A DNA stretch of 64,000 nucleotides from Deltaproteobacteria bacterium (GTDB lineage Bacteria > Myxococcota_A > Polyangia > Polyangiales > Sandaracinaceae), in the NCBI GenBank assembly GCA_017303575.1, contig JAFLCL010000018.1, positions 1 through 64,000 on the forward strand, read 5' to 3'. How positions within the stretch are numbered: the first letter of the stretch is position 1; the number at the start of each line of letters is the position of its first letter. The notes under the pieces were generated by a model. That model had not been told where the DNA came from and ran no database searches. It saw only the letters and a program-made list of their open reading frames with translations. Of the stretch, positions 57,637 to 64,000 are shown piece by piece. The position numbers and the translations under genes are program-made.

Positions 57637-60015
57637 TCACTCGAACGGGTTGAGGATGCCGGGCATCGCGACCGGCTCCTCGGACGACGGCGGCGCCGAC
57701 GACATCGTCACAGGCTCCGGAGTCCTGGGACGCATCGAGGGCTCGCCGCCGCGAGGTCGCGAGGGACGTGCGCCGAGCGTGGTCAGCGGCCGCTCCGATG
57801 TCACCGGAGGCGGGTCGATCGCGACCGGCAGCGTGCTCGGTGGCTCGGCGCGCGCGATCGGTGGCGTCGTCGACGGGGGCGGCTGCGGGGGAGTCACGAC
57901 GCCCGCGGTGGTCGGCGGCGCCTGCGCGAGGACGGGGGCTTCGATGGGGGCGGCTGGCGTGGCCGGGGCTCGTCGCGTGATCACGAACGCCAGGGTCATC
58001 AGCGCGAGCGCCACGAGCGCGAGCGCGACGATCCACGCCGTCCGAGACGAACCACCGAGGCCGATGCGGGCCATCGTGCCAGCCCCCACGCGCGCGTCCT
58101 CCGCGCGGATCGCGGGGGCAGTGTCGAGATGGGTCGGAGCAGCGAGCGCCGGCACCACCGAGCCATCGCGAATCGCCGTCGCCGTGGGACGCCCCGTGGG
58201 CTTGAGCTGCACGAGCGCGTCGCGCATCGCGCCTGCGTGTGGGTAGCGGCGGGCTGGATCGCTCGACATCGCCTGCGACAGCATCTTCGCGAGGCCCTCG
58301 TTGCCGATCGCGCTCGCGTGGAGCGGCGGCAGGATCATCGGGCGCCCGAACGGCAACGTGTCGCTCGTGGGCAGCGCGCCGGTCAGCATCTCGTAGAGCG
58401 TCACGCCCACCGCGTACACGTCGGCGCGCGCGTCGACGCCCTCCATGCGCAGCTGCTCCGGGGGCATGTAGGCGGGTGTGCCGATGGCCGTGCCGCGGTG
58501 CGTGAGCTTGGGGCCCGCGAGCTCCTCACGGAGCTTCACGATGCCGAAGTCGAGCACCTTGACGAGGTGGGCGCCGCTCGCGAGCGGCACGAGGAAGATG
58601 TTGGCCGGCTTCACGTCGCGGTGGGTCATGCCTGCCGCGTGCGCCACGGCCAGACCGTCGAGCACCTGAAGCGTGACGTCGATCGCCTCGGAGGAGGAGA
58701 GCGCTCCCTTGCGTCGCAGCCTCGCGAGCAAGGACTCGCCCGCGAGGAGCTCCATCACGAGGTACGCGCCGTGGGTCGCATCGATCCCGAGGTCGAGCAC
58801 GCCCACGACGTTCGGGTGTCCGAGGCTCGCTGCCGCGCGCGCCTCGCGCTCGAGCCGGGCGAACACGATGCGATCGATGTCCACGCCGCCGCGCGCGACC
58901 TTCACCGCCACGCGTCGCGCGATGTGCTCGTCGGTCGCCTCGTAGACGTCGCTCATGCCGCCGCTGCCGATCGGCCGGAGCAAGCGATAGCGGCCCCCGA
59001 TCAGCGTGCTGGGGGACAAGGTGCTGGTGGGCGCGCGGGGCTCCGCGTCGCGCTCCTGGCTGTGCGTGAGCGGGGCGTCGGGCTCCCCGATGGGCATCAC
59101 ACCGATCGGCGGGGGCGGATCCATGGCGGGCGCGCCGAGCAAGGTGCGGGCCGAGATCAGGGCGTCTGCGAACGCGCGCGCCGAGGCGAAGCGTCGGGAG
59201 GGATCGCGGTCCATCGCCCGCTCGAGGTGCGCGACCAGCGGCGACGGCAGATCGGCCCGCAGCGCCACGAGCGACTCGGGGCTCGTGGTGAGGATGCGGG
59301 CGCGCAGCGCGACGGGGCTCGGCGCCTCGAAGGCGGGCTTGCCCGCGAGCGCCTCGTAGATCGAGAGCGCCGCCGCGTACACGTCGCACCGCACGTCGCT
59401 CCGGCTCGCGCCTTCACGCAGGCACTCGGGCGGCACGTAGGCGGGCGAGCCCACGACGACGCCCGCAGCGGTGAGGCGTGCGGCATCGGCCTCGAGCAAG
59501 CCGAGCGTGCCGAAGTCGAGCAGCTTGAGCGAGGTGCGACCGGTCGGGAGCAGCGCGAGCATCACGTTCGCGGGCTTCACGTCGCGGTGCACGATGCCCA
59601 CCGCGTGGGCGGCCGCCAGCGCCTCGAGCAGCTCGAGCGCGAGATCGACGACGTCGAGCACCGGCAGGGGCCCTTCGCGCGCGATCCTCTCCGCGAGCGT
59701 CTCTCCCCGCAGTCGCTCCATCACGACGCACGGCGTGCCATCCGCTAGCTCGGTGACGTCGAGGATCTGCACGATGTTCGGGTGACCGATGGCGCCTGCG
59801 GCTCGCGCTTCTCGCTCGAAGCGGGCGCGCGCCTTCGTGTCGGCCTGGAGGTCGAGGGTCTTGATCGCGACCTCGCGCTCGAGCTTCGCGTCGTGGGCCA
59901 CGTGGACTGTCCCCGCGCTCCCGCGCCCGATGATCTCGCCGAGCGTGTAGCGGCCGTCCGAGAGCGTGTCGTCGCGCTCGGCGGGCTCGGGCAGCGGCTC
60001 CGCAGTGGCCGTCAT
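57637..60015 (-). CDS. Membrane protein with two Ser/Thr kinase domains
   Basis: 792 residues with two complete Hanks-type kinase domains. Domain 1 (about residues 22-290): IIGRGSAGTVHVAHD, VAIKTL, HRDVKPANV, LLDFGTLG. Domain 2 (about 345-615): IGSGGMSDVYEATDE, VAVKVA, HRDVKPANI, VLDFGIVK. Both keep the Gly loop, Lys, HRD, DFG and APE-like (VPPE, MPPE) residues. A linker rich in Pro lies between. A single membrane helix (about residues 659-680, TAWIVALALVALALMTLAFV) follows domain 2, then a Pro/Thr-rich extracellular tail of about 110 residues. ATG at 60015 is used; a much longer in-frame extension upstream is antisense to the next gene and rejected. Confidence 0.93.
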   Translation of the reverse strand: MTATAEPLPEPAERDDTLSDGRYTLGEIIGRGSAGTVHVAHDAKLEREVAIKTLDLQADTKARARFEREARAAGAIGHPNIVQILDVTELADGTPCVVMERLRGETLAERIAREGPLPVLDVVDLALELLEALAAAHAVGIVHRDVKPANVMLALLPTGRTSLKLLDFGTLGLLEADAARLTAAGVVVGSPAYVPPECLREGASRSDVRCDVYAAALSIYEALAGKPAFEAPSPVALRARILTTSPESLVALRADLPSPLVAHLERAMDRDPSRRFASARAFADALISARTLLGAPAMDPPPPIGVMPIGEPDAPLTHSQERDAEPRAPTSTLSPSTLIGGRYRLLRPIGSGGMSDVYEATDEHIARRVAVKVARGGVDIDRIVFARLEREARAAASLGHPNVVGVLDLGIDATHGAYLVMELLAGESLLARLRRKGALSSSEAIDVTLQVLDGLAVAHAAGMTHRDVKPANIFLVPLASGAHLVKVLDFGIVKLREELAGPKLTHRGTAIGTPAYMPPEQLRMEGVDARADVYAVGVTLYEMLTGALPTSDTLPFGRPMILPPLHASAIGNEGLAKMLSQAMSSDPARRYPHAGAMRDALVQLKPTGRPTATAIRDGSVVPALAAPTHLDTAPAIRAEDARVGAGTMARIGLGGSSRTAWIVALALVALALMTLAFVITRRAPATPAAPIEAPVLAQAPPTTAGVVTPPQPPPSTTPPIARAEPPSTLPVAIDPPPVTSERPLTTLGARPSRPRGGEPSMRPRTPEPVTMSSAPPSSEEPVAMPGILNPFE

Positions 60016-60195
60016 TCGAGCGTTCGAGCCTATCACCGGCGTCCGCGGCGCGGGGGCCGTCCGGTGCGTGCGGCGCACACGCGGTCGCGTGTCGCGGGCA
60101 CGCGCGCGTGCCCTCCGCAGCAGCCAATCGCGCGGATCGGGGTCGGCACGGAAACGGCTAACCTGCGGCCGCATCCCCACCCTCGGAGGAGCTCG
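60016..60195. promoter_or_regulatory. Divergent promoter region with an 18-bp perfect palindrome
   Basis: 180 bp between the kinase operon (minus) and the beta-propeller gene (plus). GGGCACGCGCGCGTGCCC (60096-60113) is fully self-complementary and lies about 80 bp from each start codon. No clear promoter hexamers were identified. GGAGGAG directly precedes the plus-strand ATG. Confidence 0.4.
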
Positions 60196-63100
60196 ATGCG
60201 CTCGAGAACGAACCTTGTGACCCTCGTGCGATCGCGGTGGCTCGGCACGCTGTGCGTCGGCGCGCTCGGGCTGGCGTCGCTCGTGCTCCCGCGCGGGGTC
60301 GAGGCGCAGGCCACCCTCCTCCACTCGCTCGATGGGCCCGCCGCGAACGCGAGGCTCGGCAGCAGCGTGTCGATCTCGGGCACGCGTGTCGCCGTCGGTA
60401 GCGCCGGCAGCGGTGGCAGCGTCCGCGTCTACGACGTGGAGTCCGATCGCCTCGTCCACCGGGCGACGCTGACGATGCCTGCGGGCGCGACGTCCGCCTT
60501 CGGACAGCAGGTCACGATCGACGGCGATCGCCTGTTCGTCTGCGACACGGACTACGACAGCGAGGCTGCGGCGATCTTCGCTTACCGCCTCGCCGCCGAC
60601 GGAACGTGGACGCTGCGTCAGACGATCCAGCCGACCGAGCGCAGCAACGGACAGTTCTGCGTCGGCGGGATCCAGGTGCGCGGCGATCTCTTGGCGACCT
60701 CGGCGTTCTACTTCGATCGCTTCAGCACGCGGATGGGCCGCGTGTTCCTGTTCCGGCGAGGGAGCGACGACGTGTGGCGGCAAGCGCTCAACGTCCCGCC
60801 GCCGATGACGAGCGCGGGCTGCAGCGAGTGTCAGTTCTTCGGGATCGGCCTCGCCTTCGACGGTCGTCGGCTCGCCGCGAGCGATCTCTCGCGCAACACG
60901 GTCTACGTCTGGGATCTGGTCGTCACGCCGACGGAGGTCACGCTCGGCACGATGCGCGCGTACCCGGGCGCCACATGGCGCTCGGAGCGGTGGGGCTCGG
61001 CGCTCGCCCTCGTCGGACCGAACCTCGTCGTGGGCAGCGACGCACGCGTCGACGGCGTCGCCAACGCGGGCGCGGTCGACTTCCTCGTCGACGATGGCAC
61101 CGCGACCGCCGCCACGCGCATCGCCAGCCACGACGCGCCCACGCCGCACGGCGTGAACGACTTCTACGGACAGCGGCTCGCGCAGCACGGCGAGCACGTG
61201 GTGGCCGCGAGCAACAACGGCTTCGTGTACCTGCATCGTCGCGGGCTCGACGGCAGCTGGACGAGCCCGAGCCGCATGGTTCCCCCTGGCGGCTCCACCA
61301 CCACCTCGTTCGGAGCGAGCGTGGCGCTCCACGGCGAGTACCTCGTGATCGGCGAGTCGGGCTACGACAGCCCGGCCACCAACGCCGGTCGTCTGCACCT
61401 CTACCGCGTGCCGGTGAGGCAGTTCGTCGTCGAGGAGATCGAGCTGCCGCGCCCGCCCGGTCCGCCGGTCAGCGCCTTCGGCGTCGACGCGTCCGTCGAC
61501 CGCGCCGGCTCCGTCGCAGCCGCGGCCGATGATCGTGGCACCAACCTGTACGCGCTCGATCTGCGCACGCGCAGCGCCGAGCTCACGCAGGTGGTGACGC
61601 ACGTCCATCCCGCGAGCAGCTACCTCGCGCACAGCGTCGACGTCGCGAACGGCACCCTCGCCGTCGCCGATCAAGACGTGGGCGGCGGCCGCGGTGACGT
61701 GACCTTCTACGAGCGGGCGGGCGACACGTTCGACTACACGTCGACGAGCGTGCACGGCCTCGCGCGCATGGGAGGCCTCTGGGGCTACGACCTCACACGC
61801 GACGGCGACCGCATCGTCGTCGGAGCGCCCTACGCCGGGCTCGACGCGTGGATCACGGTGCTCTCGCGCACGAGCCCAGGCGGCGCCTGGTCCACGGCCG
61901 CAACGATCGACGCGCCCGACGACGGACAGCTCTTCGGCTTCGGCGTCGACATCGAGGGCGACACGGTCGTCGCCGGCTGCATCGATCGCGGATGCCCGGG
62001 CGGCAACACCGGCGCTGCGTTCGTCTTCCGCCTCGAGGGCGGGACCTTGCGCGAGGAAGCGCGCATCGTCCCACCCGCGGTCTCGAGCGGCGGCGTCGTG
62101 CAGTGTGGTGCGCGCCTCGCGCTCGAGGGCGAGCGGCTCGCGATCGGCTGCCGCTACGACTCCGGCCTCTCGCTCACGCGCGCGGGCGCGGTCTTCGTCT
62201 ACGAGCGCACGGGCACGCGCTGGAGCGAGCAGCCGACGCGCATCCTCCGGCCGACGACGCGCGCGAGCAACGCCGCGTTCGGTGACGGCGTGGAGCTCGA
62301 GGGATCGGTCGTGGCGGTGACGCAGCTGATCGGCGCAGGCGTCGCGGCCCCGCTGTCTGCGTACATCGATGGCACCGAGGTGCTCCGCCACACGCTCGCG
62401 TCGGGCGAGTCCGCGCAGATCCTTCAGGTCGACGGAAACCTCTACGCGGTCGGCTCGATCTTCGCGCCGGTCGGAGGCATCCCGATGGCCGGCCGCGCCT
62501 ACGTGCTGCGCGCCGGATACCCCGACGGCGCGCTCTGCGGCGCCGGCGCGGAGTGCCTGCACGGGCGCTGCGAGGGCTTCGTGTGCGTCGGACCGAGCCC
62601 GCTCGGCGCGGCGTGCACGACGGATGACACGTGTGGAAGCGGCGAGTGCAGCGACGGTGTCTGCTGCGATCGCGCGTGTGATGGAACCTGTGAGGCGTGT
62701 GGTGCCATGGGCGTGTGCGAGCCCATCCCCGGCGGGCTCGATCCGGCGGAGGAGTGCATGGACTCGTTGTGCGGCGTGGTCTCGTGCAACGGGGCCAACG
62801 CGTGCGGCGCCACGCCGACGTGCGATGCGGGCAGGGACTTCGACGCAGGAACGGACGCCGCCATGACGACCACGGACGCTGGCCCCGAGCCCGATGCGTT
62901 CGTACCGCCGGGTGTCGACGTGGGCGCGCGTGATGCCGCGACGGTGGGCAGCGACGTCTCGTCCCCGCCGGGCGTCGATGCCGCGGCGACGGGGGCCACG
63001 GTCCCGCGTGTTCCGCTCTCCTGCACGTGCACCGCGGCAGGCTCCGATCGTGCTCGCGACGATGCGCCAGCGCTCTTGGGTCTCGCCGCGCTCGGTCTCG

Positions 63101-64000
63101 CGCTCGCGTCGCGTCGTCGTGCTGGCCGTCGTGCGCGCGCCGCGTGCCAGACGATCGGGCTGTCGCTCGCGCTGGTCGTGGCGTCGTTCGGTGCCCACGT
63201 CACGCAAGCTCGCGCGCAGAGCACCGCGCCCTCCACCGACGATGCCGAGGCGCAGCGCGAGGCGCGCGCGCGCTTCGAGCTCGGCCACGCGCACTACGAT
63301 GCGGGTCGCTATGTCGAAGCGGCCGCAGAGTTCGAGCGCGCGTACGCGCTGACCCACCGCGCAGGCCTGCTCTACAACCTGCACCTCTCGTATCAGTTCG
63401 CGGGCAACATGCCGGAGGCGACGCGCACGCTGCGGCTCTACCTCGCGAACGCGACCGACATCGAGGCGAGCGTGCGACGCGCGCTCGAGCGGCGGCTCGC
63501 GACGGCGGAGGCGACCCTCGCGGCGCAGACGCCGACGCCAGCGCAGCCCGAGCCCACCGAGACCACCCAGCCGCTCGAGCCCGAGCTCGTGGATCCGACG
63601 ACTCCCGAGCCCGTCGACGTCGTCGTGACCCCGCCCGATCAGGGCGATCCGGTCGACGACACGGCATCGTCAGGTCTGGGCCTCGAGCCCGGCATCGCCG
63701 TGATGGCGGTGGGCGCAGCGACGTTGATCGGCGCGGCCGTCACGGGCGGCCTCGCGCTCGGTGCGCAGTCCGAGCGCGACGCAGCCTGCACGCTCGGCGC
63801 CTCGATGACCGAGTGCGCCTCCACGTACGATCAGCAGAGCGTGGTGGGCCGCTTCACCACGATGCGCGACACGGCGTGGGCCCTCGGCATCGTCGGTGGA
63901 ATTGCGCTCGCAGCAGGCGCGGTCCTCCTCGTCGTCGGGGCGACGGACGACGCACCGGCAGTCACACCGCAGGTAGCGTGCGGACCCGACGGCTGCATGG
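60196..64000 (+). CDS. Beta-propeller/MYXO-CTERM protein fused in frame to a TPR/two-TM protein (partial)
   Basis: One frame stays open for 1268 codons to the window end. Residues 1-37 are a signal peptide. About 38-775 form FG-GAP-like repeats (SAFGQQVTIDGDRLFVCD, TSFGASVALHGEYLVIGES, FGFGVDIEGDTVVAGC). About 776-880 are Cys-rich (CSDGVCCDRACDGTCEACG). At about 941-980 lies a MYXO-CTERM-like anchor (CTCTAAG, a hydrophobic helix, then SRRRAGRR). Instead of a stop, the frame continues into a second hydrophobic signal-like helix (IGLSLALVVASFGAHVTQA), a TPR module (about 1015-1090), a Pro/Glu linker and two membrane helices (about 1160-1250). The start has a perfect GGAGGAG. The first part would be surface-exposed. 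Whether the second part is made as a fusion or from an internal start is unclear. Confidence 0.8.
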   Translation, partial: MRSRTNLVTLVRSRWLGTLCVGALGLASLVLPRGVEAQATLLHSLDGPAANARLGSSVSISGTRVAVGSAGSGGSVRVYDVESDRLVHRATLTMPAGATSAFGQQVTIDGDRLFVCDTDYDSEAAAIFAYRLAADGTWTLRQTIQPTERSNGQFCVGGIQVRGDLLATSAFYFDRFSTRMGRVFLFRRGSDDVWRQALNVPPPMTSAGCSECQFFGIGLAFDGRRLAASDLSRNTVYVWDLVVTPTEVTLGTMRAYPGATWRSERWGSALALVGPNLVVGSDARVDGVANAGAVDFLVDDGTATAATRIASHDAPTPHGVNDFYGQRLAQHGEHVVAASNNGFVYLHRRGLDGSWTSPSRMVPPGGSTTTSFGASVALHGEYLVIGESGYDSPATNAGRLHLYRVPVRQFVVEEIELPRPPGPPVSAFGVDASVDRAGSVAAAADDRGTNLYALDLRTRSAELTQVVTHVHPASSYLAHSVDVANGTLAVADQDVGGGRGDVTFYERAGDTFDYTSTSVHGLARMGGLWGYDLTRDGDRIVVGAPYAGLDAWITVLSRTSPGGAWSTAATIDAPDDGQLFGFGVDIEGDTVVAGCIDRGCPGGNTGAAFVFRLEGGTLREEARIVPPAVSSGGVVQCGARLALEGERLAIGCRYDSGLSLTRAGAVFVYERTGTRWSEQPTRILRPTTRASNAAFGDGVELEGSVVAVTQLIGAGVAAPLSAYIDGTEVLRHTLASGESAQILQVDGNLYAVGSIFAPVGGIPMAGRAYVLRAGYPDGALCGAGAECLHGRCEGFVCVGPSPLGAACTTDDTCGSGECSDGVCCDRACDGTCEACGAMGVCEPIPGGLDPAEECMDSLCGVVSCNGANACGATPTCDAGRDFDAGTDAAMTTTDAGPEPDAFVPPGVDVGARDAATVGSDVSSPPGVDAAATGATVPRVPLSCTCTAAGSDRARDDAPALLGLAALGLALASRRRAGRRARAACQTIGLSLALVVASFGAHVTQARAQSTAPSTDDAEAQREARARFELGHAHYDAGRYVEAAAEFERAYALTHRAGLLYNLHLSYQFAGNMPEATRTLRLYLANATDIEASVRRALERRLATAEATLAAQTPTPAQPEPTETTQPLEPELVDPTTPEPVDVVVTPPDQGDPVDDTASSGLGLEPGIAVMAVGAATLIGAAVTGGLALGAQSERDAACTLGASMTECASTYDQQSVVGRFTTMRDTAWALGIVGGIALAAGAVLLVVGATDDAPAVTPQVACGPDGCM

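Follow-up and report, generated by a model that had tools for sequence, protein, structure and literature searches.

An open reading frame in a Sandaracinaceae genome reads as a probable two-unit secretory polyprotein with an internal MYXO-CTERM-like motif

Introduction

To our knowledge, the processing of secreted proteins from polyproteins is familiar in viruses and regarded as exceptional in bacteria. Viral envelope polyproteins carry exported units in a chain, separated by a stop-transfer helix and an internal signal. In Bradyrhizobium, the fbcH product, a cytochrome b/c1 precursor, is split at an internal signal sequence. The gene described here differs from both: the viral polyproteins are of unrelated origin, and a bacterial sorting protease with signal peptidase (SPase) I or II would act on the bacterial chain; fbcH has no sorting tag and is a single respiratory case. 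A search of the literature outside subscription journals returned no on-point precedent for bacterial polyproteins with internal signals.

The MYXO-CTERM/myxosortase system (TIGR03901; MrtX, NF040593) shares with this gene a Cys motif, a hydrophobic helix, and an Arg cluster, and an MrtX-like gene is present in the genome; canonical tags are C-terminal, whereas the tag here leads straight into a second export signal. According to the accessible sections of Guo, Haft and Wall 2025 (PMC11980579), MrtX of Myxococcus xanthus cuts MYXO-CTERM proteins and Cys residues are required; internal MYXO-CTERM motifs are termed rare. For one of these, MXAN_5598 of M. xanthus, the authors propose a gene fusion whose N-terminal part is processed (PMC11980579). 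Like the gene described here, MXAN_5598 places an internal MYXO-CTERM between a surface part (an adhesin) and an envelope part (a barrel plus OmpA), but its description in those sections includes neither a second signal nor a shared Arg tail (PMC11980579). The units also differ (FG-GAP and TPR here), and the present joint recurs, in versions for SPase I and for SPase II and also in a chain of three units. A further parallel in the same sections is TraA/TraB of M. xanthus, in which a surface MYXO-CTERM protein has its envelope partner encoded directly downstream, though by two overlapping genes rather than in one frame (PMC11980579).

Results

The fused gene and its parts

The window (the whole 64,000-nucleotide stretch analyzed) ends within a plus-strand gene. 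Reading of the sequence and of the contig beyond it (66,735 bases in total) gives one open frame of 1275 codons at 60196–64023, of which 60196–64000 lies in the window; the TGA stop (64021–64023) falls just past its end. A probable ribosome-binding site, GGAGG (60185–60189, plus strand), precedes the ATG at 60196. The predicted first signal peptide (60196–60306) reads MRSRTNLVTLVRSRWLGTLCVGALGLASLVLPRGVEA, with a cleavage site before Q that was placed by eye. It is followed by an FG-GAP repeat region of the surface β-propeller type (60313–62520, outer limits approximate), which FG-GAP_2 (PF14312) matches in three stretches at 3.3e-19, and then, in the translation, by a Cys-rich segment (62527–62820) and a low-complexity linker rich in Asp, Ala, and Pro (62830–63006). 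An internal MYXO-CTERM-like motif (63022–63120; CTCTAAG...ALLGLAALGLALASRRR), placed by TIGR03901 and codon reading, runs into an Arg hinge, RRRAGRRAR (63112–63138), and a second signal (63148–63216), whose hydrophobic core ends in TQARA before Q, with predicted cleavage at 63216/63217. The remainder comprises a TPR domain of five helices (63217–63528), a disordered linker rich in Pro, Glu, and Thr (63529–63684; low pLDDT), two long hydrophobic helices (63685–63942; model and alignment of relatives), and the beginning of a C-terminal β-hairpin (63964–64000; CGPDGCMAGLSGRF-stop in translation and model) that extends beyond the window. Judged from the frame, translation of the gene as a single chain is well supported.

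A divergent gene on the minus strand, from 57640 to about 60009, encodes a protein with two Ser/Thr kinase domains, matched by Pfam Pkinase in two stretches. A minus-strand open frame of 1915 codons (57637–63384) runs antisense to the fused gene; its 3' part alone is the kinase gene, and the rest, upstream, resembles a shadow frame of high G+C.

The joint

The SCTC sequence at 63019–63030 supplies Cys codons at 63022 and 63028, and a hydrophobic helix, ALLGLAALGLALAS (about 63067–63111), precedes RRRAGRR. The MYXO-CTERM identity of this motif appears real but borderline: an isolated 44-residue segment scored 22.5 bits against TIGR03901 (curated cut-off 20), the same motif scored 15.2 bits in a genome scan (cut-off 20), and the model gave no match to the whole protein at E≤1. 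The MYXO-CTERM scores of the window gene and of one fused relative (G001:C595, below) lie at or under the curated cut-off. With about 294 residues beyond the Arg cluster, the motif is internal; because of this location, it is treated as acting like a canonical MYXO-CTERM without being filed as one.

From the Arg cluster the frame stays open through the second hydrophobic segment to an AxA site followed by Q. Since the cluster abuts the second core, the tail of the first tag would also be the n-region of the second signal. The AxA-Q site is present in all three fused copies known (ARA in the window, AQA and ASA in relatives), while the signal cores differ, and CxC is present in both fused relatives; the processing signal between the units, Cys motif plus AxA-Q, is therefore retained. 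From these motifs, the gene product looks like two exported proteins linked by a membrane hairpin that is seemingly cuttable at both ends.

The TPR module

TPR matches to the second half of the protein were below threshold in Pfam. AlphaFold2 nevertheless modeled a clear five-helix TPR, with pLDDT mostly 95–98 over these helices, followed by the disordered linker, the two long helices, and the C-terminal β-hairpin; Foldseek with this unit returned generic TPR proteins as its only solved relatives. Two cysteines (63787 and 63814) sit in the loop that connects the C-terminal helix pair; of 45 relatives, at least 90% keep them. These cysteines and a C-terminal CxPxGC...GxF motif are kept across the standalone TPR family, and the window module has all of them.

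The family is large: most genomes from the taxonomic family yield tens of matches. Its members are nearly always standalone, with their own start and signal. In several relatives, standalone TPR genes adjoin genes for MopE-type or repeat-rich surface proteins (MopE-type in L013 and L064, for example), which fits a role of the TPR unit as an envelope partner of surface proteins; this role is a lead only.

Relatives of the fused gene

The sister genome (G001, Sandaracinaceae bacterium isolate SSF7) contains the same modules in the same order and in frame at two loci, C595 and C162. Both copies are about 40% identical to the window gene, and the surroundings differ among the three loci. When a profile built on the fused region was run against 183 genomes from the order, it spanned the joint at these three loci only (272–273 bits); the next-best match (117 bits) begins behind the joint. 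All three copies share the signature PRx..CxCxAxG ahead of the helix.

A tree of 68 TPR modules places the window, C595, and C162 modules (L094, L093, and L024) in one genus clade of five (support 87/93). One standalone gene pairs with the C595 copy (100/87) and another pairs weakly with the C162 copy. The shared clade, together with the shared signature, suggests one fusion followed by later fissions; two or three separate fusions are an admissible alternative history. That a standalone gene nests beside a fused copy indicates that the TPR unit can manage without the fusion. Long open frames ahead of other TPR modules (for example L054 and L081–L085) were rejected as fusions: the upstream G+C pattern is non-coding and a start codon precedes the signal.

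The earlier note on this DNA had described a frame that continues from the Arg cluster into a second signal-like helix and then a TPR module, and had named an authentic fusion among its options. The translation and the two homologues bear out the open frame, and the fusion option gains from the sister-genome copies and from the dozens of comparable joints found across the phylum (below). The comparison of homologues that it proposed showed the FG-GAP/TPR fusion recurring in one frame, though most TPR genes are standalone. It had caught the in-frame fusion and missed both the part of the Arg tail as an n-region and the recurrence of the architecture.

An unrelated amidase fusion with the same joint

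Nearly all of the roughly 90 MYXO-CTERM matches in the two genomes of the genus end within about 20 codons. One exception in the source genome (G000:C6; L215:5767-7833) joins an Amidase_3 domain and a MYXO-CTERM (22.8 bits) through RRRR and the lipobox VSSC to a C-terminal propeller-like domain. Four other genomes, one of them a single contig, keep this fusion in one frame (L249–L252); three genera are represented overall. The joint is only 23–52% identical, and every pair agrees less there than in the amidase domain; the Cys, the helix, the Arg tail, and the lipobox are nevertheless retained. In a distant lineage (L223), an amidase is joined to a PD40 propeller through a type I signal instead of the lipobox type.

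Recurrence across Myxococcota

Junction profiles (A3, then A4) were searched in 377 Myxococcota genomes and recovered dozens of unrelated proteins in which the Arg tail leads into a second signal with an SPase I site or a lipobox. Further spanning matches, when read, were without exception a MYXO-CTERM entering a second signal (30 of 30). Second units included outer-membrane barrels with OmpA, MopE-type lipoproteins, a second metalloprotease, and TPR modules. Matches to only the first 40 positions of the junction model were set aside as ordinary MYXO-CTERM ends, and two candidate joints (L238 and L242) proved false. A strict SPase I motif (AxA then Q/D) or SPase II motif (lipobox) was present in 40 of 49 junctions against 11.2 ± 2.9 in shuffles, a count that is partly circular, since 18 of the 49 trained the profile and the profile covers that stretch.

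Because of this dependence, a joint-independent census was made of all 57 MYXO-CTERM matches in a complete single-contig genome (G308), a selection not biased to joints. Forty-seven stop within 12 residues, one stops at 14, and nine continue for at least 230 residues. All nine enter a second signal immediately (five type I, four lipoboxes), and two of them lie within a single frame of three successive units. This chain (L380; G308:C1:4103500-4114500) reads unit 1, MYXO-CTERM, lipobox, unit 2, MYXO-CTERM, lipobox, unit 3, with a coding G+C pattern throughout the frame.

Some of the chains contain related units. Units 1 and 2 of the three-unit chain are tandem duplicates, FG-GAP plus cadherin-like. 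Fused tandem duplicates also seem to make up L224 (G388:C165), in which a Matrixin domain and a MYXO-CTERM lead through a second signal to another metalloprotease-like domain. In L301 (G403:C213), a MopE-type surface part, a MYXO-CTERM, a signal, and a TPR module follow one another, the logic of the window gene in another lineage.

Discussion

Proposed processing

The observations on the window gene are one frame without a usable internal start, a conserved fusion, and retention of both processing motifs. In sequence terms, these support translation into one product and selection acting on both motifs, and we consider it likely that the gene encodes a two-unit secretory polyprotein that is cut by myxosortase on one side and by signal peptidase on the other. 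The first signal peptide would export the FG-GAP ectodomain; the MYXO-CTERM-like helix would halt transfer, leaving the Arg tail in the cytoplasm, where it would serve as the n-region with which the second signal re-inserts and exports the TPR unit. A myxosortase (a CPBP protease) would then cleave at the Cys motif and provide the FG-GAP unit with an anchor for surface transport, and SPase I would cut between AxA and Q, freeing the TPR unit. The helix-Arg-helix hairpin would be discarded after both cuts, and the outcome would be two envelope proteins in a 1:1 ratio from one start. The topology, the two cuts, the stoichiometry, and the final location of the products are what we infer. A candidate protease is encoded in both genomes of the genus, where the MrtX-like homologue scores 95 bits, under the family cut-off of 180 (NF040593).

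Alternative readings

The main competitor, which we consider unlikely, is an authentic fusion that remains uncut, one protein whose two exported domains stay connected through a hairpin of two helices in the inner membrane. The support for the cuts consists of sequence motifs, with which a hairpin-linked uncut protein is compatible; the fusion is conserved; and a hairpin with its Arg residues inside agrees with the positive-inside rule. Against it, most junctions keep SPase I or lipobox motifs while the remaining joint diverges, lipobox and type I signals interchange within the same amidase pairing, which an uncut linker would not need, and the Cys motif required for MrtX cleavage is retained.

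A second product from the same frame, in which ribosomes would begin the TPR unit at a start codon within the Arg region, is very improbable. The earlier note had listed such a start, which is unsupported for the window gene because no ATG, GTG, or TTG leaves a working signal peptide: the first helix holds a TTG and the second hydrophobic core a GTG, with no such codon in frame between them, and this GTG is only 13 residues away from the cleavage site. At some other junctions an in-frame GTG or ATG does occur close to the Arg cluster, including both sister-genome copies with a GTG just ahead of it, but the GTGs of these two copies lack a well-placed ribosome-binding site, and 15 of the 27 distinct junctions tested have no ATG, GTG, or TTG at least 16 residues ahead of the cleavage site. 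By contrast, nearly all standalone TPR genes have a correctly spaced start codon.

The earlier note had also raised a base error at 63118–63150. Such an error, a fault of assembly, or a single recent stop loss can be practically dismissed: the source genome is a draft in 540 contigs and the frame 0 coding score dips at 63100–63160 (the Arg/Leu-rich stretch), but frame 0 is best or tied across 62800–63370 in codon usage with no frame switch at the joint, relatives in another genome independently keep the fusion, and analogous joints occur in a complete single-contig genome.

Significance

Internal MYXO-CTERM motifs as such, and MXAN_5598, are already known. What appears new, with earlier notice in subscription journals possible, is the sharing of the Arg tail with the second signal in every internal MYXO-CTERM of the unbiased samples; also new are the abundance of such joints (9 of 57 in one genome), their occurrence in both an SPase I and an SPase II form, and the chain of three units. 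On balance, we lean toward the view that Myxococcota routinely place an excisable hairpin of MYXO-CTERM, shared Arg tail, and signal between two or three exported units, to be cut by myxosortase and by SPase I or II.

On this view, annotation pipelines miscount MYXO-CTERM proteins and overlook the second signals, and the fused pairs indicate functional partners: FG-GAP with TPR, amidase with propeller, and adhesin with OmpA barrel. Collectively, these results suggest that myxobacteria produce some envelope proteins as polyproteins. If the joints are cut, myxosortase would handle mid-protein tags as a matter of course, and a whole phylum would produce surface proteins and their envelope partners linked in one chain, at 1:1 dosage.
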